Positions 12,151-35,935 of a DNA stretch of 46,019 nucleotides are shown here, piece by piece. The stretch lies in IMG/VR virus record IMGVR_UViG_3300020074_000034, positions 1-46,019 of that record, one strand, 5' to 3'. The stretch is from a virus. Within the stretch, counting starts at the first letter, position 1, and each line of letters starts with the position of its first letter. Below the pieces are notes generated by a model. That model made no database searches. It saw only the letters and a program-made list of their open reading frames with translations, and was not told the DNA's origin. A program made the translations under genes and the position numbers.

Positions 12151-15100
12151 ATGCAGGACACCAATCTTAAAGTATCTCCATATTTTGACGATTTTGATCG
12201 ATCAAAAAATTATCATAAAGTATTGTTTAAACCAGGATACTCGGTTCAAACTAGAGAGTTAAACAACTTACAATCAACTTTACAAAATCAAGTTGAAAGA
12301 TTTGGTCAACACATCTTTAAAGATGGATCTGTAGTTATTCCTGGAAATATTGGATATAACTTACAATATACTGCTGTACTTGTTCAAAATTTAATTAATG
12401 GAATACGAGTTGAAGAATATAGATCCTCTTTAGTTGGAACTACAATAAAAGGATCGTCTTCTGGAGTTAAGGCAGAAATTATTGATACGATTAGCGAAGA
12501 AGATTCAGAAAAAAATATTATTACTTTGTATGTAAAATATACTGCTGGCGGATTCTTTGAAGATGATATACAATTAAATAAATTTAAAAATAATGAAATT
12601 CTCATAAGAGAATCTGATGGTATTCCCATTGCAGTTACTACTGTACAAAATGCAACCGCATATACTGGGTCTGTAGCTTATATTAATTCGGGTGTATATT
12701 TTATTAAAGGATTTTTTGTAGAAGTTCCTACACAGAGAATTATTTTAGATCAATATACAAATCAACCATCATACAAAGTGGGGTTAGTTGTAAATGAAAG
12801 TATTGTTACTTCAGAAGATGATGAGAGTTTATTTGATAATGCTTTAGGATCAACTAATTACTCTGCTCCAGGAGCAGACAGACTTAAAATAAGTACTGAA
12901 CTGACTAAACAAAATTTATTATTAACTGATGATTCAAATTTTATCGAACTTCTTCGTCTTGAAGAGGGTTCTGCAGTTAAACTTGTAGAATTTTCTGCAT
13001 ATAGTGAGTTAGAAAAAAATTTAGCTAGAAGAACATTTGATGAATCTGGTAATTATACTCTGGATCAGTATTCAATTAAAATCAGAGAAGCTTTATTTGA
13101 TGGAGAAAATAATGGTGTATATTTTACGAATCAACTAATACCAGATGGAAGAACAATTTTGGATAGAGATCCTACGGAAGATGAAGATACTTCAATAAAC
13201 GGAAATGATTACTATGCTTTGGAAATTTCAGAAGGAAAAGCATATGTAAAAGGATTTGAAGTAATAAACACCAAAAAACAATATATATTGGCAGAAAAAC
13301 CTAGAAAATCATCATCACTTAATAATCAAGGTATTTTTCTAAATATTGGTCAATATTTTAATCTTGATCCAAATCAAACAATTTCTGGATCTGTAAACTT
13401 TAATAGTCCATTGATACTAAAAGATGTTGATAATCAAATAGTAGGAGAAGCAAAAGCTCTTGGATTAACATTTGGATATAAATTATATATCACTGATCTT
13501 ACTGTATATACTACTTTAACTCTTTCTACATCATCACATTCATTGCAATCTGGAGATTTTATTACTGGATCAACTAGTGGAGCTACTGGTGTTGTAGAAT
13601 CTTTTTCGGGACAGAATGTAATATTAAGGCAGGTAACAGGTTCATTTTTACCATCGGAAGCAATTCAATCAAGTAGAGTTGATTATACATCACCAGTCAC
13701 TATATCAACAATTAATGTACCAAAATTAGAAAATGTTAGAAAGATTCAAAGAATAAGCGGATCTAACACAGTATTTACATCATTTGTAAAATTAGATCCT
13801 GTACCTATTAGTGGATCTTCTTTTTCAGTTAATGGAACTACATTCACTGGAACAGGTACTAAGTTTAACTCTGAAGTATTTGCAAAATCTAAACTAAGAA
13901 TTGGAAGTTCTGATGTTGAAGTCTCTACCGTAACTAACGCAAGTACAATTGTTTTAACATCTCCAACAAATTTGACAAATGGAATATATTATAATGTTTC
14001 AAAATTGACATGTAAACTGTATTCATCAAATAATGGTCTTTCTATAAAAACATCTTCATATCCAGTAAAATCAACCACAGATTTTAGTTATGATATATCT
14101 AAGACAGAACAATATACAGTACTTAATGGTGGATTTACAATTTCAAGACCATTAACAGAATCTATTGAAGCAAGTACTGTAATTGTAACTTCTGCAACTG
14201 CATTACTAACTCCAGTAATAACTCAAACTAGTGGAAATGTAGTTTCTGTATCTGGATTAGATCCTCAAAACGGCTCTGTGGTAAATGTTTTTTATAAATT
14301 AAGATTATCAAATGCTTCGCCTAGAAAAAAAATCTCTGTTCCTTATCAAAAATTAATAGTAGATTTATTTAAGAATTCGAACAATACCAAATATGGAACT
14401 AGATTAATTGATAGGGAGTGGTCTTTAAAATTTCCAGATGTATATAAAATTCATGCAATTCATGAAGCAACATCTGCTCAAATACAAGCAGTAGACATGT
14501 TTGATAGTATTGTTCTGAACAATTCTGATAAAATTGTGGTTGGTGATGTAATTGTTGCTGGAAATATTAGAGCAAGAATTATTGAAATTTCTTCTACAAA
14601 TTTAAAAATAAAATACTTAAGTGATGATAAATTTGTACAAGGATCAAATTTAGCAATTAAAGTAGAAGTTTCGACAAATGCTAGTATAATTGGACGTTTT
14701 GTAAAACAATCAACATATGGTGCATATAAAGATATTTCTTCTAACTTTAGTTTAGTAAAAAACGACACTGAAGATTTTTATAGAGTTTCTAAATTAGTCA
14801 GAAAATTAAATAAACCATATCCAGTAAATAAAATTATTGTAGTTTTTGATTATCTTAAACACGAAGACTTATCTAATGATTTTTATGTGGCTGATTCTTT
14901 TACTAATTTAGAGTATTCTGAAGTACCAACTTCATATAATGGAGTTTCGTATAGTGATCTCGTAGATTTTAGGTATTATATCGCACCATCAACTGGATCA
15001 AATGGAGGTTCTGGCACTCTATCAGATCCATATAGAGAAACTCAATCTGCGTTTGATTTTAAATTAAATCAAATTCAATCATCAACAAAATTTGCATATC

Positions 15101-18100
15101 CGCAAAAGTTAGTTACATTAGATTATGATTTTTACTTAGGGCGTATTGACAAAGTTTATCTAAATGAAACTGGATATGCGTCAATAATTAAGGGTGCAGA
15201 TTCTATTAATCCAAAATTACCATTAACTAATGATACTGGATTATTGTTAGGAACTATCAGTCTACCTCCATATCTTAAAAAAGTATCCGATGCTTCTATT
15301 AAATTAGAAAATACTAAAGGTTATACAATGAAAGATATTGGTCTACTTGATGAAAGATTAACAAATGTAGAAACTTATACTTCTTTAAATTTACTAGAAA
15401 TTAATACAAATACCTTGAATATTTTAGATGATGAAGGAAAAAATAGATTTAAGAATGGTTTTATCGTAGATAAATTTAATACAGTAACTATTGCTGATAT
15501 AACAAACCCAGACTATAGTATTTCTATAGATACCAATAATTATTTAGCTAGACCATATCCATATGTAAATAATGTTGATTTTGTATATAGCAATACTGAA
15601 GGTGCAACTAAAAAAACTGGAGATCTAATTACTTTACCATATACAGATGTTGTGTATATAAGTCAATCTTTTGCATCTAGAGTAGAAAATATTAATCCAT
15701 TTGAAATTGTTAATTGGGTTGGAAATATTACTTTAACTCCAAAAAAAGATGTTTGGTATGATACTGTTCGAACTATGGGCGAAACACAAACTATTGATCT
15801 AGAGGGACCAATTAGATTTTTATTTGATCAAAGTGGTGCTGCAGGTGATCAATGGGGTTCTTGGACTACTACTCGTTCAGAGCGTACAAATGGTGGTACA
15901 AATAATTTTCAATCAAGAACTGGAGTTAATAATAGGATCGATGTTACGGAACAGACGATTAACACGGGGGATACAATTAATAGTATTGTAGATTTAAGAT
16001 TTGTCAGATCTTCTATTATTGATTTATTAGGAACTTCTTTAAAACCAAATACAAATTTTAATTTTTATATTAATGAGATAAATGCAACAGAATTTTTATA
16101 TCCCAAAATAATCACTAACATTAGTGGAGTTAATAAAAAATTTATTGTTGGAGAGACTGTAGAACTTTTTCCTCTTCCGCCATTGCTATTTGACATTCCT
16201 GCTGACTCATTTCAGGTGTTGCCAACAGATTTTAATACAATAACTGCAACAGTTGTTGATCCATATAATTTTACATCAAATAAAGATCTAATTGGTAATA
16301 ATTTTGCATTAAATCAAACTAGTCAAACTATCGAATATTCACAAAATACTACAATATTAGCAATTGATAAAATTAGTACTACAAATCTTAATTTGATAAA
16401 TCCAACGTTACTAGGACAAAGATTTAGTATTCGTGGTATGACATCTGGCGCGATAGGTACAACACAAGTACCTCAAAAAGTGATATCTAATGAAATTGGA
16501 ACAATTCATGCTTTTGTTACTATTCCTCCACAAAAATTTGAAACTGGAATATTAACCTTTACAATTTCAGATAAACCAGGTGATATTTTTGCTATTGGAT
16601 ATACATCTTCCAGTGCTTCAACTTCATATTTGACTGAAGGCACCCAAGTAAATGTGACATCAAATATCGTTTCTGTCTCTGTACCAGAAGTAGTTACTAC
16701 ACCAATTTCTCAAAATAGAACGGTATTTGTTGCAGATCCCGTTCAGGCCCCTGGCGGTAGGGATCCATTAGCTCAATCATTCTTTATAGACACTGAAGGT
16801 GGAATATTTGCAACATCTATTGATTTGTATTTCTATACCAAAGATAATATAGTTCCAATTTCTGTGGATATTAGAACTGTAGAAAATGGTTATCCTACAT
16901 CTACAGTAGTTCCATATAGTAGTGTGACAGTAAATGCATCAGATGTAAAAATTTCATCTGATGCATCTATACCAACAACATTTACATTTCCAAGTCCTGT
17001 ATATTTATCAGATAAAACAGATTATTGTTTTGTAGTTAAGGCAGTTTCTCAAAATTATTATATATGGGTTTCTAGATTAGGTGAAATCGATGTAACTAAC
17101 AATAATGCTATTGACAAACAACCATACATTGGAGTTCTCTTTAAGTCTGCTAATCAATCTACTTGGACTCCTGATCAATATGAAGATATTAAATTTACTC
17201 TTAATAGAGCTAAATTTACTACCAATACAACAGTACCAGCAGTATTGTATAATAAACCAATTCCCCCAGTAAAACTACAACCAGAATCGTTACGATTTAA
17301 TCAAGACTCTACTACAATTACTGTATTTCAACCAAATCATGGTATGCACGGCACACAAAATTATGTAATTCTTAATGATGTAGTGTCCGATCAACCTAAT
17401 TCACTTCTTGGTGCAACTATTTCAAATACTGCATTAACATTAACATTGAACGATTTAAGAAATCAATCTATCAATTACAATTCATTCACTACTTGGACAA
17501 AAGTTAATAACGCATCTATCTCTTCAACGAATCCAGGATACATTAAAATTAACAATGAAATTATTGCATACTCAGAGATAACTAGCGACAATGTTTTTAC
17601 TGTACAACAAAGAGGAGCTTTGGGAACTATTGCTGCACAACACTTAAGCGGGTCAATAGTTAAATGTTATAATTTAAATGGAATGAATCTTGATAGTATT
17701 AATACTACTCACAAAATTTTAAATGTATTAAATATTGACGAATATCAAATTGTAAATCAAAATAAAGCAAACTTTACTATTTCTGGCGGCGGCCCAAATG
17801 CATATGCAACTAGAAATATTCCATATGAAATTCTTAATCCACAAATTAATATTTTAACTTTACCAGATACAGACTCCACTTTAGTATTGGATTCAATAAC
17901 TGGAACTAGCATTGGCAATACATCACAGGTTTCTTTCTTACTTAAGGATGGTGAAACTATATCAAATAAAACAGAAAATGAACTTTCATCACCAAGACTT
18001 GTTGCCTCAGATATAAATGCAAAAAAATATTTAAATGGCGTAAAAGGAAGCATGAAACTAATGATTAATATGTCAACAACAAAAGATACAATAAGTCCAG

Positions 18101-18552
18101 TACTGGATTTGATTGGATCTTCTATCATCACAATTTCAAATAGAATTAATAAAGAACTTACTGATAGTGGAAATATTGATATTAGTTCTGAATTACTACC
18201 TATAGGTGGATTGCATCCCGCATATATTACAAAAAAAGTTACTTTAGAAAAATCTGCTTCTTCTGTAAGAGTTTTATTTGATGCTATTAGAAGACAAGGA
18301 GTTGATATTAAAGTCTTTGTTAAGATTAAAGGAGACTCTGCCTTGGGTAGTTTTGGTGATATGAACTATACTGAAATACCTGTCGAATCATATCCAGTTT
18401 CTCAAACTGAAAATGAATACAGATCGTTTGAATATGAAATTCGTGGATTGCAAGAATTTAAAGAATGGAGTATTAAAGTTATTATGATCGGTAATGATCA
18501 AAGTAATATTCCAAAAATTAAAAACTTTAGAGCAATTGCTCTTGCTATTTAA
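12151..18552 (+). CDS. Large virion structural protein, DUF4815-like N-terminus
   Basis: A 2,133-residue protein in the position that gp9-gp12 hold in T4, between gp8 and the neck genes, so probably a baseplate or tail-fibre component. The N-terminus (FDRSKNYHKVLFKPGYSVQT, then RELNNLQSTLQNQ) resembles the DUF4815 family of phage structural proteins; I recognise this from memory, not from a search. Recurring modules include SGDFITGSTSGATGVV (about residue 470), GTGTKF (about 570), PNHGMHG (about 1730) and a QRGALGT..AQHLSG unit (about 1820-1835). The C-terminus ends in a conserved-looking block with EWSIKVIMIGNDQSN and IPKIKNFRAIAL. No membrane segment or catalytic motif was seen. Confidence 0.8.
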   Translation: MQDTNLKVSPYFDDFDRSKNYHKVLFKPGYSVQTRELNNLQSTLQNQVERFGQHIFKDGSVVIPGNIGYNLQYTAVLVQNLINGIRVEEYRSSLVGTTIKGSSSGVKAEIIDTISEEDSEKNIITLYVKYTAGGFFEDDIQLNKFKNNEILIRESDGIPIAVTTVQNATAYTGSVAYINSGVYFIKGFFVEVPTQRIILDQYTNQPSYKVGLVVNESIVTSEDDESLFDNALGSTNYSAPGADRLKISTELTKQNLLLTDDSNFIELLRLEEGSAVKLVEFSAYSELEKNLARRTFDESGNYTLDQYSIKIREALFDGENNGVYFTNQLIPDGRTILDRDPTEDEDTSINGNDYYALEISEGKAYVKGFEVINTKKQYILAEKPRKSSSLNNQGIFLNIGQYFNLDPNQTISGSVNFNSPLILKDVDNQIVGEAKALGLTFGYKLYITDLTVYTTLTLSTSSHSLQSGDFITGSTSGATGVVESFSGQNVILRQVTGSFLPSEAIQSSRVDYTSPVTISTINVPKLENVRKIQRISGSNTVFTSFVKLDPVPISGSSFSVNGTTFTGTGTKFNSEVFAKSKLRIGSSDVEVSTVTNASTIVLTSPTNLTNGIYYNVSKLTCKLYSSNNGLSIKTSSYPVKSTTDFSYDISKTEQYTVLNGGFTISRPLTESIEASTVIVTSATALLTPVITQTSGNVVSVSGLDPQNGSVVNVFYKLRLSNASPRKKISVPYQKLIVDLFKNSNNTKYGTRLIDREWSLKFPDVYKIHAIHEATSAQIQAVDMFDSIVLNNSDKIVVGDVIVAGNIRARIIEISSTNLKIKYLSDDKFVQGSNLAIKVEVSTNASIIGRFVKQSTYGAYKDISSNFSLVKNDTEDFYRVSKLVRKLNKPYPVNKIIVVFDYLKHEDLSNDFYVADSFTNLEYSEVPTSYNGVSYSDLVDFRYYIAPSTGSNGGSGTLSDPYRETQSAFDFKLNQIQSSTKFAYPQKLVTLDYDFYLGRIDKVYLNETGYASIIKGADSINPKLPLTNDTGLLLGTISLPPYLKKVSDASIKLENTKGYTMKDIGLLDERLTNVETYTSLNLLEINTNTLNILDDEGKNRFKNGFIVDKFNTVTIADITNPDYSISIDTNNYLARPYPYVNNVDFVYSNTEGATKKTGDLITLPYTDVVYISQSFASRVENINPFEIVNWVGNITLTPKKDVWYDTVRTMGETQTIDLEGPIRFLFDQSGAAGDQWGSWTTTRSERTNGGTNNFQSRTGVNNRIDVTEQTINTGDTINSIVDLRFVRSSIIDLLGTSLKPNTNFNFYINEINATEFLYPKIITNISGVNKKFIVGETVELFPLPPLLFDIPADSFQVLPTDFNTITATVVDPYNFTSNKDLIGNNFALNQTSQTIEYSQNTTILAIDKISTTNLNLINPTLLGQRFSIRGMTSGAIGTTQVPQKVISNEIGTIHAFVTIPPQKFETGILTFTISDKPGDIFAIGYTSSSASTSYLTEGTQVNVTSNIVSVSVPEVVTTPISQNRTVFVADPVQAPGGRDPLAQSFFIDTEGGIFATSIDLYFYTKDNIVPISVDIRTVENGYPTSTVVPYSSVTVNASDVKISSDASIPTTFTFPSPVYLSDKTDYCFVVKAVSQNYYIWVSRLGEIDVTNNNAIDKQPYIGVLFKSANQSTWTPDQYEDIKFTLNRAKFTTNTTVPAVLYNKPIPPVKLQPESLRFNQDSTTITVFQPNHGMHGTQNYVILNDVVSDQPNSLLGATISNTALTLTLNDLRNQSINYNSFTTWTKVNNASISSTNPGYIKINNEIIAYSEITSDNVFTVQQRGALGTIAAQHLSGSIVKCYNLNGMNLDSINTTHKILNVLNIDEYQIVNQNKANFTISGGGPNAYATRNIPYEILNPQINILTLPDTDSTLVLDSITGTSIGNTSQVSFLLKDGETISNKTENELSSPRLVASDINAKKYLNGVKGSMKLMINMSTTKDTISPVLDLIGSSIITISNRINKELTDSGNIDISSELLPIGGLHPAYITKKVTLEKSASSVRVLFDAIRRQGVDIKVFVKIKGDSALGSFGDMNYTEIPVESYPVSQTENEYRSFEYEIRGLQEFKEWSIKVIMIGNDQSNIPKIKNFRAIALAI

Positions 18553-18816: not shown

Positions 18817-19143
18817 ATGGCAGCAGTACACAATCTGTATATTGATCAAGGATCAGACTTTTCCGCACAAATTGGAATCTATGACGATTCTAATGTGTAT
18901 TGGAACTTGACTGGTTATACTGCAGCTGCCAAAATTAAAAAATCATATTATAGTTCAACATCTGTTGATTTTACTGTTTCCGTTAACGGAAACGGAACTG
19001 TTTCTTTGTCTTTGCCTTCTTCATCTACGTCCAATATGGAACAGGGAAGATATTTGTATGATGTAATAATTGTTTCAAACGGTGGGGTGAAAACAAGAGT
19101 TATTGAGGGTATAGTCACAATCAACCCAGGAGTAACAAAATGA
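18817..19143 (+). CDS. Small beta-rich structural protein (BppU N-terminus-like fold)
   Basis: 108 residues, starting MAAVHNLYIDQGSDFSAQIG, with alternating hydrophobic strands (NLTGYTAAAKIKKS; VSLSLPSSSTSNMEQGRY; DVIIVSNGG) and ending EGIVTINPGVTK. The pattern of a short domain with DFSAQIGIYDDSN then WNLTGYTAAAKIK resembles N-terminal domains of phage upper baseplate proteins (BppU-like). This is a fold-level guess. It overlaps the next gene by ATGA (19140-19143), indicating translational coupling. A perfect 18-bp palindrome lies inside it at 18976-18993. Confidence 0.75.
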   Translation: MAAVHNLYIDQGSDFSAQIGIYDDSNVYWNLTGYTAAAKIKKSYYSSTSVDFTVSVNGNGTVSLSLPSSSTSNMEQGRYLYDVIIVSNGGVKTRVIEGIVTINPGVTK

Positions 19144-19346
19144 ACACCAAAGTAACAGTATCTAGAGTACCCCAAGTCATCACTGTAAATACAGCTGGCG
19201 GCGGTAGGCTTTCAGGATTGACTGACGTAAATATGACAGGTGCATCAGATGGAGCTCTGCTTCAATATGATGCTGCAAGTGGATCTTGGATAGCACAAAA
19301 TATTTTAGAAAAATCTGGTTTACAAATTAATTGCGGTAATTTCTAA
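19140..19346 (+). CDS. Small fibre-associated protein (68 aa)
   Basis: Starts in a 4-base ATGA overlap with the preceding gene. It contains LSGLTDVNMTGASDGALLQY followed by DAASGSWIAQNIL, a motif common in phage tail-fibre and collar proteins (LTDV...DGqvL.Yd...W.a). Its proximity to the 1,046-residue fibre-like gene suggests it is a small attachment or trimerisation partner, or a split-off piece of a larger fibre. The function is inferred from motif and context only. Confidence 0.7.
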   Translation: MNTKVTVSRVPQVITVNTAGGGRLSGLTDVNMTGASDGALLQYDAASGSWIAQNILEKSGLQINCGNF

Positions 19347-19364: not shown

Positions 19365-22300
19365 ATGGCATCAATCTTAAAGATTAAAAGATCCAGTACC
19401 AACCCAACAGCAACCCCGGCTGGATTGGGTCAGGGTGAGCTTGCTTACGGGGAAGGCACTAGTACTTATACAGATGCTCAAGGTGCAAACGTTACCTCTT
19501 TTGGTAAACTGTTTGTGGGTAGAGGACCTGAAACTGCTGGTGTCTCAGCAAATATTGATATCATAGGTGGCAAGTATTTTACAGATCTTCTAGATCATGG
19601 ACATGGAACAATTGTTTCAAACTCTGCAGCAATTGTAGACTCATCTAAAAAGGTTAATGAATGGAATGTTGATAACATCACCCTAGATGGCAATACAATT
19701 TCCACCACAAATTCAAATGGTAATTTGACCATTGACACAAATGGAACTGGAGATGTGGTAATTTCTGGTTCTAGTACACTTGGTGATAATTTATTCAAAA
19801 TTAACGACGGATCTGTCGATAGATTTATCGTTGATAGTTTTTCTGGCGCGGTTGATATTACATCCCCAACTCTAAGTGCTTCAGATACTTTACTTAATAT
19901 CTCATCCACCTGGAACAATGGCGGTTCAACTTTTTACGGTATTGATGTTGACGTAATCAATACTGCATCGGCAGCAAGCTCAAGACTTCTTAACTTATCT
20001 GTTGGCGGTTCAGATAAATTTAATGTAGATGTTTCCGGCAATGTTTATTTAACTGGAAATATTTCATATGCAACCGCAGTAAACTCTAGCATTCAAGATA
20101 ATACTGCAGGTGCCTTTGTAGTAAAAGAAGGTTCAAATAAGTATATTGATATTGATACTACAAATAATGCAGAACTGTTAACTCTTGGTAATTCGTTAGC
20201 AACAGTCAATATTGTTATTGAAGATAACACACCAACTGCTTTTGCTATTAAAGAAGGATCTCAAAATTATGTTGAGGTTGATACAAATAATGCACAACAA
20301 AAAATAACAATTGGTAATGATAATACCAGACTAGATAATAAAATTATTTCAGGATCTGATGCGTTCATTGTACGAGAAGGATCAAACAAATATATTGATA
20401 TTGATACTGGCGCTGGATCAGAATTAATTACATTCAGTACTGGTAATGTTGACATTGATAATGATTTAAACATTGATGGTGGTGATTTAACTACTAATCA
20501 ATCTACATTTAACTTACTAAACACAAATGCTGCTACAGTTAACTTTGCTGGATCAGCAACTACTGTAGAAATCGGGTCTGCTACTGGCACTACTAATGTT
20601 AATAATAATTTAGTAGTAGACCTAGATTTACAAGTAAACGGTGGGGATTTAACTACTAATCAATCTACATTTAACTTACTAAACACAAATGCTGCTACAG
20701 TTAACTTTGCTGGATCAGCAACTACTATTGAGATTGGGTCTGCTACTGGTACTACTAATGTTAATAATAACCTTGATGTAGATGGAGACCTTAATATTGA
20801 CGGCGGGGATCTTACTGTTTCTAACATTACTTTTAACCTTGCAAATGCTAATGCTACTACAGTTAATGCTTTTGGTGCAGCAACTGCTATTGAGATTGGT
20901 GCCGCTAGTGGCACTACCAATATCAACAACAATCTAGATGTAGATGGTGATGTAAATATTGATGGTGGAGCTCTTACTGTTTCTACTGCTACGTTTAACC
21001 TTGCAAATGCAAATGCTACCACAGTTAACTTTGCTGGATCAGCAACTACTGTAGAGATTGGGTCTGCTAGTGGTACTACTAACATCAATAATAACCTTGA
21101 TGTAGATGGAGACGTTAATATTGATGGTGGAGATCTTACTGTTTCTACTGCTACGTTTAACCTTGTAAATACAACCGCTACTACAGTTAATGCTTTTGGT
21201 GCAGCTGGAACAATTAATTTTGGATCCGCAGGAAGTGGTACTACTAGGTTTAGAAATAATACTTTAGTTGGTACTGAATCAACACAATATCTTTTTGATA
21301 CTGTTGCTACTACAGTTAACTTTGCTGGGGCAGCAACTACTGTAGAGATTGGTGCCGCTAGTGGCACTACTAACATCAATAATAACCTTGAGGTAGACCT
21401 AGATTTACAAGTAAATGGTGGTGATTTAACTACTAATCAATCTACATTTAATTTACTTAACACAACCGCTACCACAGTTAACTTTGCTGGGGCCGCAACT
21501 ACTGTAGAGATTGGTGCCGCTAGTGGCACTACCAATATCAACAACGATCTAGATGTAGATGGAGACGTTAATATTGATGGTGGAGATCTTACTGTTTCTA
21601 CTGCTACATTTAACCTTGTAAATACAAATGCTACCACAGTTAACTTTGCTGGGGCAGCAACTACTCTAAACATTGGTAGTTCTTCAACCGAAGTTGACTT
21701 TGGAGATTTGAGAATTGTAGGTTCTACAATTTATAGTGACAATTCAGGTGCTCAAACAATCACAATTGACCCATATCCTGCCGGCGGTGATGGTGCTGGT
21801 AATGTTGTAGTTAGAGGTAACTTACAAGTTTCTGGTACTACAACAACGGTCAATTCTACACAGATGACTGTTAATGATCCTATATTTACACTTGGAGATA
21901 GTATTAGTGAAAAAACTGTTGTTTCTGCTGCAGCAAGTGGACAGTCAGTAGTTATTCTTGATGATGTAGACGGGTTGAATGTTGGTGATATTGTTTCTGG
22001 TAATGCATCGATTCCAAACGGAACAACTATTACCAACATTAATGTAGGTGCTAATACTATTACTCTTAGTGCAAACCTATCTGCTGGTATCGCAGCAAGT
22101 ACAAATACATCACCAAAAATTCTAACCTTTACGCAAGGTGCAGATGATAATAAGGATCGTGGTATTGAATTTAAATATTTTAACAGTGGTCTAAAAACTG
22201 GATTTTTTGGTTATGATGAATCTGGTACATCGGAGGGAGCTACCACCACATATTATTTCACATATATTCCAGATGCAACAAATACTTCTCAGGTATTTAC

Positions 22301-22505
22301 TGGAACTGTTGGTAGTGCATATTTTAATACTACTAAACTAGATATTGGTATTCACAAAGGTGTTCCATATTTCGATCAATATAAAAGACTTACTTCAACA
22401 GATGCAGCAGGAACATCTGATATAACAACTTCAAACCAAATTTTGACTGTAACTGCTGCGGGTGTTCCTGTGTGGACTACTACAATTGATGGTGGTACTT
22501 ATTGA
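19365..22505 (+). CDS. Tail fibre-like structural protein with 54-residue tandem repeats
   Basis: 1,046 residues. The N-terminus (MASILKIKRSSTN, AGLGQGELAYGEGTSTYTD, KLFVGRGPE) is typical of T4-like marine phage fibre or structural proteins. Three ~45-residue repeats (AFVVKEGSNKYIDIDT, AFAIKEGSQNYVEVDT, AFIVREGSNKYIDIDT) lie at about residues 244-360, followed by seven units of a 54-residue repeat (GGDLT...ATTVNFAGxATTVEIG...GTTNxNNNL). The C-terminal part contains GFFGYDESG and a YFDQYKRLTSTD block. The long beta-solenoid-like repeat with little charge fits an elongated fibre shaft. It corresponds in position to T4 gp12/wac (before gp13) but without recognisable sequence similarity. Whether it binds the host is not shown by the sequence. 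Confidence 0.8.
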   Translation: MASILKIKRSSTNPTATPAGLGQGELAYGEGTSTYTDAQGANVTSFGKLFVGRGPETAGVSANIDIIGGKYFTDLLDHGHGTIVSNSAAIVDSSKKVNEWNVDNITLDGNTISTTNSNGNLTIDTNGTGDVVISGSSTLGDNLFKINDGSVDRFIVDSFSGAVDITSPTLSASDTLLNISSTWNNGGSTFYGIDVDVINTASAASSRLLNLSVGGSDKFNVDVSGNVYLTGNISYATAVNSSIQDNTAGAFVVKEGSNKYIDIDTTNNAELLTLGNSLATVNIVIEDNTPTAFAIKEGSQNYVEVDTNNAQQKITIGNDNTRLDNKIISGSDAFIVREGSNKYIDIDTGAGSELITFSTGNVDIDNDLNIDGGDLTTNQSTFNLLNTNAATVNFAGSATTVEIGSATGTTNVNNNLVVDLDLQVNGGDLTTNQSTFNLLNTNAATVNFAGSATTIEIGSATGTTNVNNNLDVDGDLNIDGGDLTVSNITFNLANANATTVNAFGAATAIEIGAASGTTNINNNLDVDGDVNIDGGALTVSTATFNLANANATTVNFAGSATTVEIGSASGTTNINNNLDVDGDVNIDGGDLTVSTATFNLVNTTATTVNAFGAAGTINFGSAGSGTTRFRNNTLVGTESTQYLFDTVATTVNFAGAATTVEIGAASGTTNINNNLEVDLDLQVNGGDLTTNQSTFNLLNTTATTVNFAGAATTVEIGAASGTTNINNDLDVDGDVNIDGGDLTVSTATFNLVNTNATTVNFAGAATTLNIGSSSTEVDFGDLRIVGSTIYSDNSGAQTITIDPYPAGGDGAGNVVVRGNLQVSGTTTTVNSTQMTVNDPIFTLGDSISEKTVVSAAASGQSVVILDDVDGLNVGDIVSGNASIPNGTTITNINVGANTITLSANLSAGIAASTNTSPKILTFTQGADDNKDRGIEFKYFNSGLKTGFFGYDESGTSEGATTTYYFTYIPDATNTSQVFTGTVGSAYFNTTKLDIGIHKGVPYFDQYKRLTSTDAAGTSDITTSNQILTVTAAGVPVWTTTIDGGTY
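20095..20450 (+). repeat. Three ~45-residue KEGSNKYIDIDT repeats
   Basis: Three coding repeats, each containing AF(V/A/I)(V/I)(K/R)EGS(N/Q) and a (Y)(I/V)(D/E)(I/V)DT strand, beginning near 20095, 20225 and 20350. They precede the 162-bp repeat array in the same fibre-like gene. Confidence 0.8.
20478..21740 (+). repeat. 162-bp in-frame tandem repeat array (54-aa units)
   Basis: Units begin at 20478, 20640, 20802, 20964, 21126, 21417 and 21579. Spacing is exactly 162 bp except for the unit at 21126, which is 291 bp and contains a compound segment with a divergent 43-residue insert. Long stretches are nearly identical at DNA level (for example around 20485-20550 and 20647-20712). Two flavours of unit start (GGDLTTNQSTFNLLNT and GGDLTVSTATFNL) are mixed along the array, which suggests recombination between units. 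Confidence 0.93.
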
Positions 22506-22529: not shown

Positions 22530-22751
22530 ATGAATCCTGATGAAGCCAACACTTTAATGCAAGTGATGAGTAGCAAAATTAATCAACTTACCCAACAAAA
22601 TATTATGTTAGAGTCTAAAGTAATGTATTTAAACTCTGTCATACAACAACTACAGAGTTCTCCCGAAAAGATACACGATAGTGAAACATTTAATGAAACT
22701 TCACCAGTAAAACAAAGTAATGGCAAACCCAAGCAGCAGGTCGCAACTTAA
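22530..22751 (+). CDS. Small coiled-coil protein upstream of gp13 (73 aa)
   Basis: Preceded by a good GAGG ribosome site nine bases upstream of its ATG. The N-terminal half is a heptad-like helix (ANTLMQVMSSKINQLTQQN, then LESKVMYLNSVIQQLQ) and the C-terminus is polar and probably disordered. It overlaps the gp13 start by 32 bases, so the two are probably co-translated. I do not recognise a family. A role in neck or collar assembly is only suggested by position. Confidence 0.72.
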   Translation: MNPDEANTLMQVMSSKINQLTQQNIMLESKVMYLNSVIQQLQSSPEKIHDSETFNETSPVKQSNGKPKQQVAT

Positions 22752-23541
22752 GGAATACTGCTTACGAAAATTAGGTAAGCCAGTAATTGAAATTAATGTT
22801 GACGATGATCAAATTGAAGATTTAATTGATGATACCATTCAACTCTACAATGAGAGGGTTTATAATGGGGTTGAAAGGGTTATGTTAAAGTATAAATTTA
22901 CTAATGAAGATATTGAAAATGGCAGAAAAAGAAATACTTCAACCACAGTAACAGATCAAAATACTGCTACGCCGCCAAGAACTCTTCAATTTGAAGAAGG
23001 TAGAGGGTATTTTACTTTACCAGATCATGTTATTGGTGTTGAAAATATAATGCCTATTTCTAATACATACGTAAATAGTATGTTCGGTTTTAGATATCAA
23101 TTTTTCTTAAATGATTTTTATAATTTTTATGCGTATGATATTTTAAATCTAACTATGACTATGACATACTTAGAAACATTAGAATTTCTTTTAGAAGGTA
23201 AAAAAATAATAAGATATAATAAAGTTCAAAATAAAATATATGTTGATGTTGATTGGCAAAGAGTGGCTGCAAACGACTATCTAGTTATTGAATGTTACAG
23301 AGCACTAGATCCAGTCACATGGCCAAAAATTTACAATGAAATTTTTATAAAAAAATATCTCACATCGTCTATAAAGAAACAGTGGGGTCAAAATTTAATG
23401 AAATTTCAGGGTATAAAATTACCTGGTGGAGTAGAGTTTAATGGTAGACAATTGTATGATGACGCGGTTCAAGAGTTGGATAAACTAACAGAAGAAATGT
23501 CTTCTACATATGAACTTCCACCATTAGACTGCGTAGGTTGA
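22720..23541 (+). CDS. gp13: Neck protein gp13
   Basis: 273 residues, slightly shorter than T4 gp13 (309). The N-terminus MANPSSRSQLKEYCLRKLG followed by VIEINVDDDQIEDLIDD is the characteristic start of cyanophage gp13. A conserved core (QLYNERVYNGVERVMLKYKF) and a C-terminal helix-rich part (IKKQWGQNLMKFQGI, GGVEFNGRQLYDDAVQEL) follow. gp13 and gp14 form the neck that closes the filled head and accepts the tail. The next gene is gp14, one base after the stop. Confidence 0.93.
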   Translation: MANPSSRSQLKEYCLRKLGKPVIEINVDDDQIEDLIDDTIQLYNERVYNGVERVMLKYKFTNEDIENGRKRNTSTTVTDQNTATPPRTLQFEEGRGYFTLPDHVIGVENIMPISNTYVNSMFGFRYQFFLNDFYNFYAYDILNLTMTMTYLETLEFLLEGKKIIRYNKVQNKIYVDVDWQRVAANDYLVIECYRALDPVTWPKIYNEIFIKKYLTSSIKKQWGQNLMKFQGIKLPGGVEFNGRQLYDDAVQELDKLTEEMSSTYELPPLDCVG

Positions 23542-23542
23542 T

Positions 23543-24874
23543 ATGGCTAAAAATGTTTATTTTTCAAATGGTACACTTTCAGAACAAAGACTATATGAGA
23601 ATTTAATCATAGAGTCTTTACAGATTTATGGACATGATGTATATTACTTACCCAGAGAAATAGTAAAAAAAGATAGAATTTTTAGAGAAGACATACTTTC
23701 AAAATTTGATGAAAATTATTTAATTGAAATGTATCTATCAAGTTTCGAAGGTTTCGAAGGCGATGGAACTTTACTATCAAAGTTTGGCGTAAGAATTTCT
23801 GATGAAGCAACGTTTATAATTTCAAAGAGAAGATGGGAAGATCTTGTTTCGTCTTCAAATAATTTAGTATCGTCAAAACGACCCAATGAAGGAGATCTAT
23901 TATATTTTCCTCTCACTCAACAATTTTTTCAAATCAAGTTTGTTGAACACGAAAAACCATTTAGACAACTTGATGCTATTCAAACATATCAACTCATTGT
24001 AGAAACAATGGAGTTTTCTGATGAAAGGATTGAGACTGGAATTAAAGAAATCGACGATATTACCAAAGACTCTGGATATTCAGTTGTGTTTAAACTCATC
24101 GATGGTATTAAATCTGTATATCTAACAAATGCTGGAACTGGCTATGGAAGAAATACTACTGTAACATTTGGGCCACCAGGAACTGGGTCAAAAGCATCCG
24201 TTAGTGTCTCAACAACCAATGGTTCTATTAGTTCAATTAATTTGACAGAACCAGGGGTTGGTTATTCTACCGCACCACTTGTATCATTTATTGGTTCTGG
24301 TTCTAATGCATCAGCAATTACAACGGTTGCAAATAAAAAATCATTCAAAAATGGAGAACTTGTATTTGGTTCATCCAAATCTGCAGATGCAGCTGCAACA
24401 ATAACTTCTGGATCTGTGACTAACATTAAAGTTTTAAAACTTGGAGAGGAATATAAAACAGTTCCAACTGTAACTATATCATCACCGGCAACTGGAGTAA
24501 AAGCAACTGCAACAGCTGTTCTTACTAATGGAAAAGTAACTTCCATAAATATTACGAATCCAGGTTCTGGTTATACTACAGCACCAACTATTACAATACA
24601 AAGATCTCCATCCGAACCAAAAGGTAAAGTTACGAGATATGATGGTACTAATAAAGAACTAGAATTAATTAATATTGTAGGAACTTTCGTTGATAATGAT
24701 ACGTTAGTTGGTGAAGAAACTGGTGCTGAATGGACTATTACCTCATTCAGTACTATAGAAAAAGAAAATGATCCTGGTGCTGAAAATGAATGGTTTGAGT
24801 TATCTGGTGATAAAATTATTGACTGGACTGCAAAAAATCCATTTGGTGAATATGGAAATATGGGAGTATTCTGA
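23543..24874 (+). CDS. gp14: Neck protein gp14 with inserted GxGY repeats
   Basis: The N-terminal ~175 residues (MAKNVYFSNGTLSEQRLYEN, YYLPREIVKKDRIFREDILS, FIISKRRWEDL) match the gp14 neck protein of T4-like phages, and the C-terminus (WFELSGDKIIDWTAKNPFGE) is the conserved gp14 tail. At 443 residues it is much longer than T4 gp14 (256). The extra segment, about residues 185-375, holds four GxGY-type beta repeats (AGTGYGRNTTVTF, PGVGYSTAPLVSF, LGEEYKTVPTVTI, PGSGYTTAPTITI) and a GKVTRYDG...TLVGEETGAEW module. gp14 completes the head-tail neck. It overlaps gp15 by one base. Confidence 0.93.
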   Translation: MAKNVYFSNGTLSEQRLYENLIIESLQIYGHDVYYLPREIVKKDRIFREDILSKFDENYLIEMYLSSFEGFEGDGTLLSKFGVRISDEATFIISKRRWEDLVSSSNNLVSSKRPNEGDLLYFPLTQQFFQIKFVEHEKPFRQLDAIQTYQLIVETMEFSDERIETGIKEIDDITKDSGYSVVFKLIDGIKSVYLTNAGTGYGRNTTVTFGPPGTGSKASVSVSTTNGSISSINLTEPGVGYSTAPLVSFIGSGSNASAITTVANKKSFKNGELVFGSSKSADAAATITSGSVTNIKVLKLGEEYKTVPTVTISSPATGVKATATAVLTNGKVTSINITNPGSGYTTAPTITIQRSPSEPKGKVTRYDGTNKELELINIVGTFVDNDTLVGEETGAEWTITSFSTIEKENDPGAENEWFELSGDKIIDWTAKNPFGEYGNMGVF

Positions 24875-25941
24875 TGTTAGGTAAACATTTTTATCACGAA
24901 ATTATTCGTAAAACTATTGTTGGGTTTGGAACCCTCTTTAATAATATTGAATTAAGGCGCGTTGATGCCAATGGAAATATTGTTCAAACTATTAAAGTGC
25001 CTCTTTCCTATGGACCAAGAGAAAAGTTTCTTGCAAGAATTGAAGCAGAACCGCAATTAGATGGAAGATCTGAGATTCAAATTCAATTGCCAAGAATTGC
25101 ATTTGAAATGAAAGGAATTAATTATGATTCTACTAGAAAGTTAGCACCAATTAATATTTGCAAAACTCCAAAGTCTGGTGATACCAAAGAAGTATATACT
25201 CAATATACTCCAGTGCCGTACAACCTAGATTTTGAACTTAATATTATTAGTAAAAATAATGATGATTCTGTTCAAATTTTAGAACAAATTCTTCCATACT
25301 TTCAACCAATGTTTAATATTACTATTAATCTTATTGATCAAACAAAAGAAATTAAAGACATACCAATTATATTACAAAATGTAAGTATTCAAGATGATTA
25401 TGAAGGAGATTTTAGAAGAAGGAGATCTTTAATTCATACTTTAAATTTTGTAGCAAAAACTTATCTATATGGCCCAGTTGTATCTCAAGATGTGATTAAA
25501 ACAGTTAATGTTGATATTGGTACGGCAATTAACACTGGTTCTAGATATGTAAGATATAGTGCAACTCCAAAAGCACTAGAAGATTATACTAATGATGGTA
25601 CTGACATTTCATTCACGGAAGTCAATGTAAATAGCAACACAATTACTTTGCCCAATCATGGATTTATTACTGGTGATTTTGTAACGTATAGAGTTACCAA
25701 TCAAACTGGATCCCCTATCGGTGGATTGGAATCTGGCAGTGAATACTATATTGTTAAAATTGATAATAATAATTTTAGAGTTGCAACAACGAAGTATAAT
25801 TCTCAACGTGATATTAATATAAATTTAACTTCGCAGGGAACAGGTCCTCACAAATTCTCAGTAATTACTACTCTAGATGATCAATTTGTAGAACCAGATG
25901 ATAATTTTGGTTTCAATGAATCTTGGACAACATTATTATGA
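24874..25941 (+). CDS. gp15: Proximal tail sheath stabilizer gp15
   Basis: 355 residues against 272 in T4. The T4-like core includes GTLFNNIELRRVDANG near the start, LPRIAFEMKGINYDSTRK (T4: LPRINLHLVDFSYN), QYTPVPYNLDFEL, and the diagnostic VQILEQILPYFQPMFNITI (T4: FQIVEQILPYFQPHFNTTM). gp15 caps the tail at its head-proximal end and stabilises the contracted sheath. The C-terminal ~85 residues are an extra beta module with LPNHGFITGDFVTYRVT, similar to modules in other virion proteins here. The start codon overlaps the gp14 stop by one base and the end overlaps gp16 in an ATGA. Confidence 0.94.
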   Translation: MLGKHFYHEIIRKTIVGFGTLFNNIELRRVDANGNIVQTIKVPLSYGPREKFLARIEAEPQLDGRSEIQIQLPRIAFEMKGINYDSTRKLAPINICKTPKSGDTKEVYTQYTPVPYNLDFELNIISKNNDDSVQILEQILPYFQPMFNITINLIDQTKEIKDIPIILQNVSIQDDYEGDFRRRRSLIHTLNFVAKTYLYGPVVSQDVIKTVNVDIGTAINTGSRYVRYSATPKALEDYTNDGTDISFTEVNVNSNTITLPNHGFITGDFVTYRVTNQTGSPIGGLESGSEYYIVKIDNNNFRVATTKYNSQRDININLTSQGTGPHKFSVITTLDDQFVEPDDNFGFNESWTTLL

Positions 25942-26354: not shown

Positions 26355-26377
26355 AAAAATAAAAAGGATATCAACTT

Positions 26378-30705: not shown

Positions 30706-33339
30706 ATGGCTTTAGCTTCACCTGGAGTACTTATTAAAGAAGTTGATTTTACAGCAACCGTTCAAGTTGCTGATCAAAATATTGGTGTTGTTGCTATTGA
30801 TGCTGAGAAGGGTCCTACTGATACTCTCACATATATATCTAGTGAAAGAGAATTGGTTGATTTATTTGGTTTGCCAAACGACTATAATTATGAATCATGG
30901 TTTGCTGCAAGCACCATTATTCAATATGGAGGAGTGGCTGCTATAATTAGACCAACTGGCGGTAACGTAAATCTTGGTTTAAATAACGCTAATATTCGTA
31001 AAAATGGTACTGTAAGAAACAATCTTCTTATTAAAAACAAAGAACATTTTCAATCACTTGAAGATGGTCAAAAATCATTTTTATTCACATCAAGAACAGC
31101 AGGCGAAAAATTTAATAATGGAATAAAAGTTGTAGTAGTTGATCATGGTGCAGATCAAATCATAACTCTTTCTGGTGCAACTTCAAATTATTTACAAATT
31201 ACTGTTGCTTCAGACTCATTCGCAATTAACGATTTTGTAAAAATTGAAAACGAATATTTTAAAATTACATCGGCTGCAACAGCTGTTACACTCGGAAACA
31301 GCACTGTATATAGATATGCTGTTCAAAATGCTCAAATTGGATCAACTCAAGCAGTTCATGCAGTTGGGGCAACAGTACTCAAGTGGACTTTTGCTGAAAA
31401 TGCTCTTGCAGCAAAATCTCTTGCTGAACCAAACGCTACTGACGAAATTGAGTTAACTGAATTAACTATTACTCTTAACAATGTAACTGGTCTTGCAGCA
31501 AATGATCATCTAAGAATTAGAAGAGTTCCTACTGGTGGCACAACAGTTATAACCGAAGAATTCGTAAAAATTGTAAGTGTTGATGGTGACACTAATACAG
31601 TTCTTGTTACAAGGGGTCAACTAGGAACATCTGCAATTGCATTTGATGATGATCAAGCTGGAGATGAAACTGGAGCTCCAACGATTACAGTTAAGAAATT
31701 TGATTTTGCACAAGCCTCCCCTACAGTAACTACGACTCTCAGTGTTGCAATTCCAACAGTAACTTTTTCTGGTGCTGTATCTGGACTTACGGTAGGTGAT
31801 TTAATTAAAACCACTGTAGGTGGATCAGTTAGATATGGAAACATTTATAGAATTGACGGTGCAAATTTCTATATAACTCTCTGGGATACTTCAAAGAGAT
31901 TTGCTGCTGGACAAACTTTAGTTAATGATGCAAACGTTACTTTATCAACAGTTGCAAGTGTTGTTGAAGATGATGTATATGCAACTCTAGAGTATGCACC
32001 AAATAGAAGATGGTTATCTCTTGCTCCACAACCAGGAACATCAGTTGCTACTTTGTCTAAAGGAGGGCGTTTTGATGAATTCCATATTGCAATTCTTGAT
32101 AGTACTGGAGCAATAAGTGGAACTCCACATACTGTCCTTGAAACTTTAACTTATGTCTCAAAGGCATCTGATGGTAGAAGTTCCGATGGAGACTCAACTT
32201 TCTTCAAAAAAGTAATTGAAAGTAATTCAACTAATATTTTTTGTGGTGACGATGATTTAGTAACCAAACTTACTGAAACTGTTGCATTTAAATACGTTGA
32301 CTCCGCCGGAGTTGTTCAAACTGGTGACGGAGATATTGGCGAAACAAGTCAAAATCAAGTATTTAGAATGTTCAAAAATTCTGATGGAACTCCTGTTTTT
32401 GGATTTGTGTTGAGTGGTGGTACAAATTATAATTATGCCACGGCGGCAAGTCAACTATCAGTAACAAATGCTCTTTCAACGTCTTATGACCTTGTAAGAG
32501 ATCCAGAAACTTTTGGTGATATTGATTTCTTAGTTCCAGGTAAAGTTACTGAACTTGGTGCAGTAAAATTAATTGATATTGCAGAATCAAGAAGAGATTG
32601 TATTGCTTGCATTTCACCAAGAAGAATAGATGTTATTAATACAGAGTCTACAACTGTAAAAACTGATGCAATTGTTGGATTTTTCAAAACTTTACCAAGT
32701 TCATCATTTGCAATTTTTGATTCTGGGTATAAGTACATATATGATAAGTATAATGATAAATATCGTTATGTTCCTTGTGGTGCTGACGTTGCTGGACTTT
32801 GCATTTCTACTACAATTAATGCAGAAACTTGGTTCTCTCCAGCTGGTTATAACAGAGGAAATCTACGTAATGCACAAAAACTTACATATTCACCAAAACA
32901 AGCAGAGAGAGATCGTCTTTATGTGAATAGAATCAATCCAATAGTTTCTTTCCCAGGTCAGGGTATTGTTTTATTTGGTGACAAAACTGCTCTTGCTTCT
33001 CCTAGTGCATTTGATAGAATTAATGTTCGTAGATTGTTTATTGAACTAGAGAAAAATATTGCAACTTTTTCAAAATTTCAACTATTTGAAATTAATGATG
33101 AAATTACCAGAAGTGGTTTTAAAGCAGCAGTTGAACCATACCTCAGAGGTGTTCAAGGTAGAAGAGGTATTTATGACTTCTTAGTTGTTTGCGATTCTTC
33201 AAATAATCCCCCTGATGTAATTGATCGTAATGAGTTTAAGGCTGAAATTTACATTAAACCAGCAAGAAGTATCAACTTCATTACAATCACCTTTGTCGCA
33301 ACGAGAACAGGTGTTTCTTTCAATGAACTAATTAATTAA
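30706..33339 (+). CDS. gp18: Tail sheath protein gp18
   Basis: 877 residues against 659 in T4. The N-terminus MALASPGVLIKEVDFTATVQ and the C-terminal block (RRLFIELEKNIATFSKFQLF; YLRGVQGRRGIYDFLVVCD; KAEIYIKPARSINFI) are diagnostic of gp18, whose C-terminal domain forms the contractile lattice. The extra length lies at about residues 150-340, where two beta modules (VKIENEYFKI...AQIGS...HAVGATV and FVKIVSV...TRGQLGT) resemble a module in the 2,133-residue protein. Good AGAGG ribosome site, late promoters and a leader hairpin precede it, consistent with high expression. Confidence 0.96.
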   Translation: MALASPGVLIKEVDFTATVQVADQNIGVVAIDAEKGPTDTLTYISSERELVDLFGLPNDYNYESWFAASTIIQYGGVAAIIRPTGGNVNLGLNNANIRKNGTVRNNLLIKNKEHFQSLEDGQKSFLFTSRTAGEKFNNGIKVVVVDHGADQIITLSGATSNYLQITVASDSFAINDFVKIENEYFKITSAATAVTLGNSTVYRYAVQNAQIGSTQAVHAVGATVLKWTFAENALAAKSLAEPNATDEIELTELTITLNNVTGLAANDHLRIRRVPTGGTTVITEEFVKIVSVDGDTNTVLVTRGQLGTSAIAFDDDQAGDETGAPTITVKKFDFAQASPTVTTTLSVAIPTVTFSGAVSGLTVGDLIKTTVGGSVRYGNIYRIDGANFYITLWDTSKRFAAGQTLVNDANVTLSTVASVVEDDVYATLEYAPNRRWLSLAPQPGTSVATLSKGGRFDEFHIAILDSTGAISGTPHTVLETLTYVSKASDGRSSDGDSTFFKKVIESNSTNIFCGDDDLVTKLTETVAFKYVDSAGVVQTGDGDIGETSQNQVFRMFKNSDGTPVFGFVLSGGTNYNYATAASQLSVTNALSTSYDLVRDPETFGDIDFLVPGKVTELGAVKLIDIAESRRDCIACISPRRIDVINTESTTVKTDAIVGFFKTLPSSSFAIFDSGYKYIYDKYNDKYRYVPCGADVAGLCISTTINAETWFSPAGYNRGNLRNAQKLTYSPKQAERDRLYVNRINPIVSFPGQGIVLFGDKTALASPSAFDRINVRRLFIELEKNIATFSKFQLFEINDEITRSGFKAAVEPYLRGVQGRRGIYDFLVVCDSSNNPPDVIDRNEFKAEIYIKPARSINFITITFVATRTGVSFNELIN

Positions 33340-35710: not shown

Positions 35711-35935
35711 ATGACATCTATATCTAGAGAAATTGTTGACGCAATTCTTGATCGAGATAATGTAAATGCAAACGAAAAAATTTATAATGCACTCTATGGA
35801 AAGAGTTCGGAAGAACTTCTTACTAGAAAAGCAACAATTGCAAAACATTTCTTTAATCCTGATTTTGACGGAAATGAACCTGATAATAATGTAGAAGTTG
35901 AAGACACCGAAGACACCGAAGAAACCGAAGAGTAA
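35711..35935 (+). CDS. gp67-like prohead core protein
   Basis: 74 residues: an N-terminal amphipathic helical part (SREIVDAILDRDNVNANEKI, then LTRKATIAKHFF) followed by a very acidic tail ending EDTEDTEETEE. T4 gp67, between gp20 and gp21, has the same plan (80 residues, helical start with KIAIARNF, acidic tail). Position, size and composition support the assignment although identity is low. gp67 is a prohead core component later degraded by gp21. No gp68 equivalent lies between this gene and gp21. The acidic tail is encoded by a 9-base repeat. Confidence 0.8.
   Translation: MTSISREIVDAILDRDNVNANEKIYNALYGKSSEELLTRKATIAKHFFNPDFDGNEPDNNVEVEDTEDTEETEE
35900..35932 (+). repeat. 9-base GAAGACACC-type codon repeat in the acidic tail
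   Basis: Two exact copies of GAAGACACC and a third variant GAAGAAACC, followed by GAAGAG and the stop. It encodes EDTEDTEETEE and is a likely slippage site altering tail length. Confidence 0.8.

Follow-up and report, generated by a model that had tools for sequence, protein, structure and literature searches.

Repeat-built phage fibers and duplication of the T4 fiber adhesin are both already known, and the principle behind the gene described here is not new. Duplications in the T4 tail-fiber adhesin, the subject of Tetart et al. in 1996, reportedly expand host range. That case resembles ours in that recombination alters repeat number in a fiber gene, but in T4 the adhesin is duplicated and varies in culture, whereas the repeats studied here would form a shaft and are stable among near-identical viruses. 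The work of Tetart et al. on T4 tail-fiber duplication (PMID 8637004) is cited in PMC9004378. The T4 tail fibers gp34 and gp12 have repeated units, as our protein does, in a fibrous trimer with a beta-stranded shaft and Gly/Ser/Asn turns (PMC5537660), an architecture that we propose for our protein as well; there is no sequence match, however, and the motif repeated in gp34 and gp12 is of another, mixed alpha-beta kind. In antireceptors of Streptococcus thermophilus phages, collagen-like repeats separate domains (PMC5601072), forming a similar repeat spacer between host-recognition domains, but these repeats are Gly-X-Y and unrelated in sequence to our 54-aa unit.

Closer counterparts are found in cyanophages. 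By synteny, the ortholog is PHM2_092 of Prochlorococcus phage P-HM2 (T4-like GC 509). PHM2_092 and its ortholog in P-HM1 occupy the same place after VrlC, GC112, GC211, and GC508 and their N-terminal and C-terminal regions are conserved relative to our protein, down to the final DGGTF/Y; the P-HM1 protein is the best fold match. On the other hand, PHM2_092 has 561 aa and lacks the 54-aa array, and the putative shaft is therefore not essential to the family. The 54-aa units themselves are present in UTS52182.1, deposited as a "tail fiber protein" of the cultured Synechococcus phage BUCT-ZZ01, a cyanophage from a lake in China whose host is S. elongatus PCC 7942. This 1,168-aa protein contains five recognizable units, four of them in an array, and a related C-terminal segment, but its N terminus, far C terminus, and gene context differ. 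We found no description of the 54-aa module in the part of the literature covered.

The stretch of DNA analyzed here (the window, 46,019 nt) is a metagenomic virus record that covers the structural genes of a T4-like myovirus related to cyanomyoviruses. PHROG and Pfam searches identified genes for a gp8-like baseplate protein, a VrlC-like protein, gp13, gp14, gp15, terminase, sheath, and tube, as well as portal, protease, scaffold, and major head protein. The terminase and portal are 77% and 65% identical, respectively, to those of Synechococcus phage S-CREM1, a likeness that makes a picocyanobacterium the probable host. The repeats lie in a single 1,046-aa ORF (19365-22505, plus strand), and the gene order VrlC-like, 93 aa, 108 aa, 68 aa, 1,046 aa is that of PHM2_088 to PHM2_092 in P-HM2 (Table 1). 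The neck genes that follow match the PHROGs named head-tail adaptor Ad2 and head closure Hc2. In related phages, the interval from VrlC to gp14 is a host recognition cluster with tail fibers (PMC7029224). A tblastn comparison with the P-HM2-type fiber protein gave an E value of 2e-30, spanning residues 1 to 1046 with 39% identity over 48% of the query.

Several neighboring genes have features of their own. The tail sheath gene (30706-33339) encodes 877 aa, and the approximately 450 positions of the sheath profile are spread over aa 1 to 874, which suggests a large insertion. The gp14-like neck protein (23543-24874) has a long C-terminal extension (aa 180 to 443) matching fiber, baseplate, and structural-protein profiles, and the gp15-like sheath stabilizer (24874-25941) has one at about aa 210 to 334 matching baseplate and fiber profiles. 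Directly after the portal gene, GAAGACACC is repeated in 3.6 copies (35900-35931). Near 26360, just before ORF 26378, the window and contigs L002 to L013 show a small length difference that shifts an ungapped comparison.

The sequence-only reading had placed seven unit starts at 20478, 20640, 20802, 20964, 21126, 21417, and 21579, with spacings of 162, 162, 162, 162, 291, and 162 bp and a compound 291-bp unit; all of these proved exact. Its description of the units as near-identical was too strong, as their pairwise nucleotide identity is 52 to 86%. The tandem repeat analysis that it proposed gave TRF scores of 676 and 453, which exclude chance. The unit has 54 aa, and the 162-bp period is in frame with the ORF. 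The 291-bp compound consists of two shortened units (aa 588 to 636 and ∼637 to 684, split by hmmsearch at about aa 636), so that there are eight units in total, the last of them partial (aa 739 to 781). No other ORF of the window was found to contain the unit. The same ORF also holds an upstream array that is more diverged than the 54-aa array.

Table 1. Features of the putative fiber gene and its borders in the window
Feature	Coordinates	Strand	Basis
VrlC-like baseplate protein with DUF4815, bounding fiber slot on the left	12151..18552	+	Pfam DUF4815; order as VrlC in P-HM2
68-aa gene, in place of P-HM2 "YadA domain-containing protein" PHM2_091	19140..19346	+	gene order
Tail-fiber-type virion structural protein with array, 1,046 aa	19365..22505	+	ORF; PHROG; PHM2_092 synteny
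Conserved N-terminal region, aa 1-241	19365..20087	+	conserved in relatives and in cyanophage and Melnitz fiber proteins
Upstream tandem array, three diverged 41- to 42-aa units, AFVVKEGSNKYIDIDT type	20088..20462	+	repeat family D2, translation
54-aa unit 1, flavor TTNQSTFNLLN	20478..20639	+	
54-aa unit 2, flavor TTNQSTFNLLN; 81-bp exact tract with unit 1	20640..20801	+	
54-aa unit 3, flavor TVSNITFNLAN	20802..20963	+	
54-aa unit 4, flavor TVSTATFNLAN	20964..21125	+	
Compound unit of 97 aa, made up of units 5 and 6 in shortened form	21126..21416	+	hmmsearch split
54-aa unit 7, flavor TTNQSTFNLLN	21417..21578	+	
Terminal partial unit 8, flavor TVSTATFNLVN, continuing into C-terminal region	21579..21707	+	
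Conserved C-terminal region, aa 782-1046	21708..22502	+	most conserved part of family
Small beta domain, ∼aa 850-920	21912..22124	+	pLDDT 82-95; Foldseek 9n71, 4hiz, 4y9v, 4ru4
gp13-like and gp14-like neck genes, bounding fiber slot on the right	22720..24874	+	PHROG Ad2, Hc2; Pfam T4_neck-protein

The ORF matches PHROG families of virion structural proteins and short tail fibers, and for one cyanophage PHROG that bears the name "short tail fiber protein", the match falls mainly on the repeat part. Pfam searches of the ORF for a gp12/collar domain gave only a sub-threshold chance match, and no YadA head or stalk model matched; the YadA label is present only in annotations of related cyanophages. 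PDB sequence searches yielded no solved structure. The N-terminal region, which is also conserved in the fiber proteins of P-HM2/P-HM1, P-SSM2, and Methylophilales phage Melnitz, is probably the virion-attachment end; the C-terminal region is the probable distal end and may have a receptor role. In Foldseek searches, its small beta domain matched domains from phage tailspikes and tail tubes.

AlphaFold2 modeled the last units and the C-terminal region with a mean pLDDT of 77 (76 to 88 for the units). In this monomer model, the units form an extended chain with almost no within-chain strand pairing. A confident yet unpaired chain is what an intertwined trimeric beta-shaft, with its strands pairing from one chain to another, would be expected to give; in the triple beta-helix of T4 gp34, main-chain hydrogen bonds are exclusively between monomers (PMC5537660). 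Foldseek matches included the P-HM1 ortholog (E value of 5.9e-23), the S-TIM5 tail fiber (7.5e-8), and a P-SSM2 tail fiber-like protein (6.1e-5). A model of the whole protein had a mean pLDDT of 47, a confidence too low for it or its fold search to be used. Strands of the monomer model are spaced about nine residues apart, but a permutation test on the hydrophobicity profile gave a P value of 0.18, and we do not claim a nine-residue sub-period.

The earlier proposal that the repeats form a tail-fiber shaft is thus supported indirectly, by gene position, by PHROG and fold matches, and by the confident, unpaired extended chain. Alternatively, the protein may be a whisker/fibritin-like or baseplate-decorating protein with the repeat as a mere spacer, rather than a receptor-binding fiber. 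A position between the VrlC-like and neck genes fits such accessory proteins too, "virion structural protein" is among the PHROG labels, and the fold search gave no confident match to a known receptor-binding domain in the C-terminal region. We nevertheless consider this alternative unlikely, because tail fibers are the closest of the named matches in the fold search and the slot is the tail-fiber cluster of related phages (PMC7029224). Overall, we favor a shaft built of the repeats in a probably trimeric fiber; the shaft itself is well supported, though indirectly, and we infer it together with the trimer and the orientation.

The sequence-only reading described two unit flavors shuffled between positions, with almost identical flanking DNA, and took this as a signature of unequal recombination or gene conversion. 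This interpretation is supported: exact tracts of at least 40 nt are shared only within the same genome, and relatives differ in length by whole units. Such tracts occur in 6 of 88 within-genome unit pairs and in none of 1,171 between-genome pairs, an excess reached by none of 5,000 label permutations. Units 1 and 2, the strongest pair, are identical over an unbroken 81 bases, and their 22 mismatches all lie elsewhere; when mismatches were placed at random, none of 100,000 trials gave such a run. Either an exchange of short tracts or a partial duplication inside the gene accounts for these observations.

Could shared structural constraint alone, without recombination, make the units alike? Mean unit identity is barely higher within genomes (0.691) than between them (0.684), as would fit constraint. 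Moreover, of the 13 SNPs that near-identical contigs show in the array, 11 agree with another unit (4.7 expected, P = 4e-4), with larger excesses in L019/L093 and L021/L022, but nearly equal numbers came from a control in which the templates were units of unrelated genomes. This largely reproduced signal is again what constraint would give, and we rejected SNP templating as evidence for gene conversion. Constraint as the sole cause is nonetheless quite improbable: it would not keep synonymous sites only within one genome, where all of the long exact tracts, including that of units 1 and 2, are found.

Other candidate traces of exchange carry less weight. L007 has the same change, to Lys, in the two junction codons that precede the TTNQ flavor (20639 and 21416), which is consistent with exchange between units but anecdotal. 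A higher SNP density in the L007 array gave P values of 2.6e-5 against the 12-kb stretch and 0.066 inside the gene; we give it little weight, as SNPs cluster elsewhere too. Import of the array from a co-occurring relative was rejected: the array has no exact tract longer than 30 nt in common with L009, L012, L014 to L017, or L023.

Contigs that are near-identical to the window (at least 99.7% over 6 to 13 kb) contain no 162-bp indel; six cover the array in full (L002 to L007) and two in part (L008 and L013), and they come from several metagenomes but are not fully independent, since four of the contigs are equal in length and may share a source. An exact-pattern scan for further near-identical contigs with the array returned the same set. 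The sequence-only reading had suggested that copy number varies within a population and proposed a comparison of the locus across close relatives. That suggestion was not supported: units and order, whose invariance it had named as refuting evidence, are the same in every full-length near-identical contig found, as judged from short-read assemblies, which are a consensus and would hide minority length variants.

Because the record is metagenomic and tandem repeats misassemble easily, the array or its unit order might be an assembly artifact. We regard this as extremely unlikely. No exact repeat in the array exceeds 81 bp, which is less than the length of a typical short read, and the reading frame is open across the whole array. 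Furthermore, contigs of several separately named metagenomes, although several may share a source, carry the same array.

Among 40 distinct relatives, between the conserved ends, the unit count ranges from 1 to 10. Pairs differing in unit count make up 0 of 7 at flank identities of at least 97%, 0 of 2 at 92 to 97%, 1 of 40 at 88 to 92%, 16 of 30 at 84 to 88%, 36 of 50 at 80 to 84%, and 99 of 105 at 75 to 80%. Unit counts therefore diverge only below ∼88% flank identity, a threshold that is approximate because many of the pairs at 88 to 92% are from one clade. In clear cases, the indels are whole units, of 162 bp (L019/L038) or 324 bp (L042/L026).

These counts bear on the idea of a length switch that works at the population level through rapid changes in unit number, like phase-variable repeats. 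Arrays of similar units can recombine, and unit number varies widely in the family. In addition, the fiber genes of L052, L053, and L054 (ORF starts 226, 933, and 226), from three metagenomes, are identical save for a copy-number difference of exactly 108 bp, L052 being longer, though this lies in a different, collagen-like Gly-X-Y array and we rejected it as a copy-number change of the 54-aa unit; while real in the contigs, it may reflect true variation or assembly collapse. Against a switch, units and order are unchanged in L002 to L007 and in the covered parts of L008 and L013, and counts differ in none of the nine distinct pairs at flank identities of at least 92% and in a single pair at 88 to 92%. 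A switch of this kind is thus very unlikely.

We consider it likely that the ORF encodes a trimeric tail-fiber-type protein with shaft units that are slowly gained and lost whole and exchange short tracts within the same gene. The conserved N-terminal region would attach the fiber to the virion, the 54-aa units would build an intertwined beta-stranded shaft, and the conserved C-terminal region would form the distal end. The shaft would evolve by occasional gain or loss of in-frame units combined with short-tract exchange, fast enough to be seen between species-level lineages but not inside a single near-identical population.

The 54-aa unit is also present in differently designed fiber-type proteins, with up to ∼25 matches (L062, L056, L046, L061, and L052). 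Tentatively, and with less confidence than doubt, we propose that T4-like phages of fresh and marine waters may employ it as a general shaft module, with 1 to ∼25 units in several fiber designs, and that its number may be a slowly evolving, selected ruler of fiber reach, kept regular by short-tract exchange between units.

Whole-module steps between distant relatives are an ordinary mode of viral fiber evolution, and it is reasonable to infer that unit number sets fiber length. Fiber proteins that share their ends but have anywhere from 1 to 10 units, together with a related repeat fiber in a cultured cyanophage, form a natural ladder, which makes the common assumption that repeat number sets fiber length and reach testable. 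They also provide a time scale for array change, stable within near-identical viruses and variable below ∼88% flank identity.
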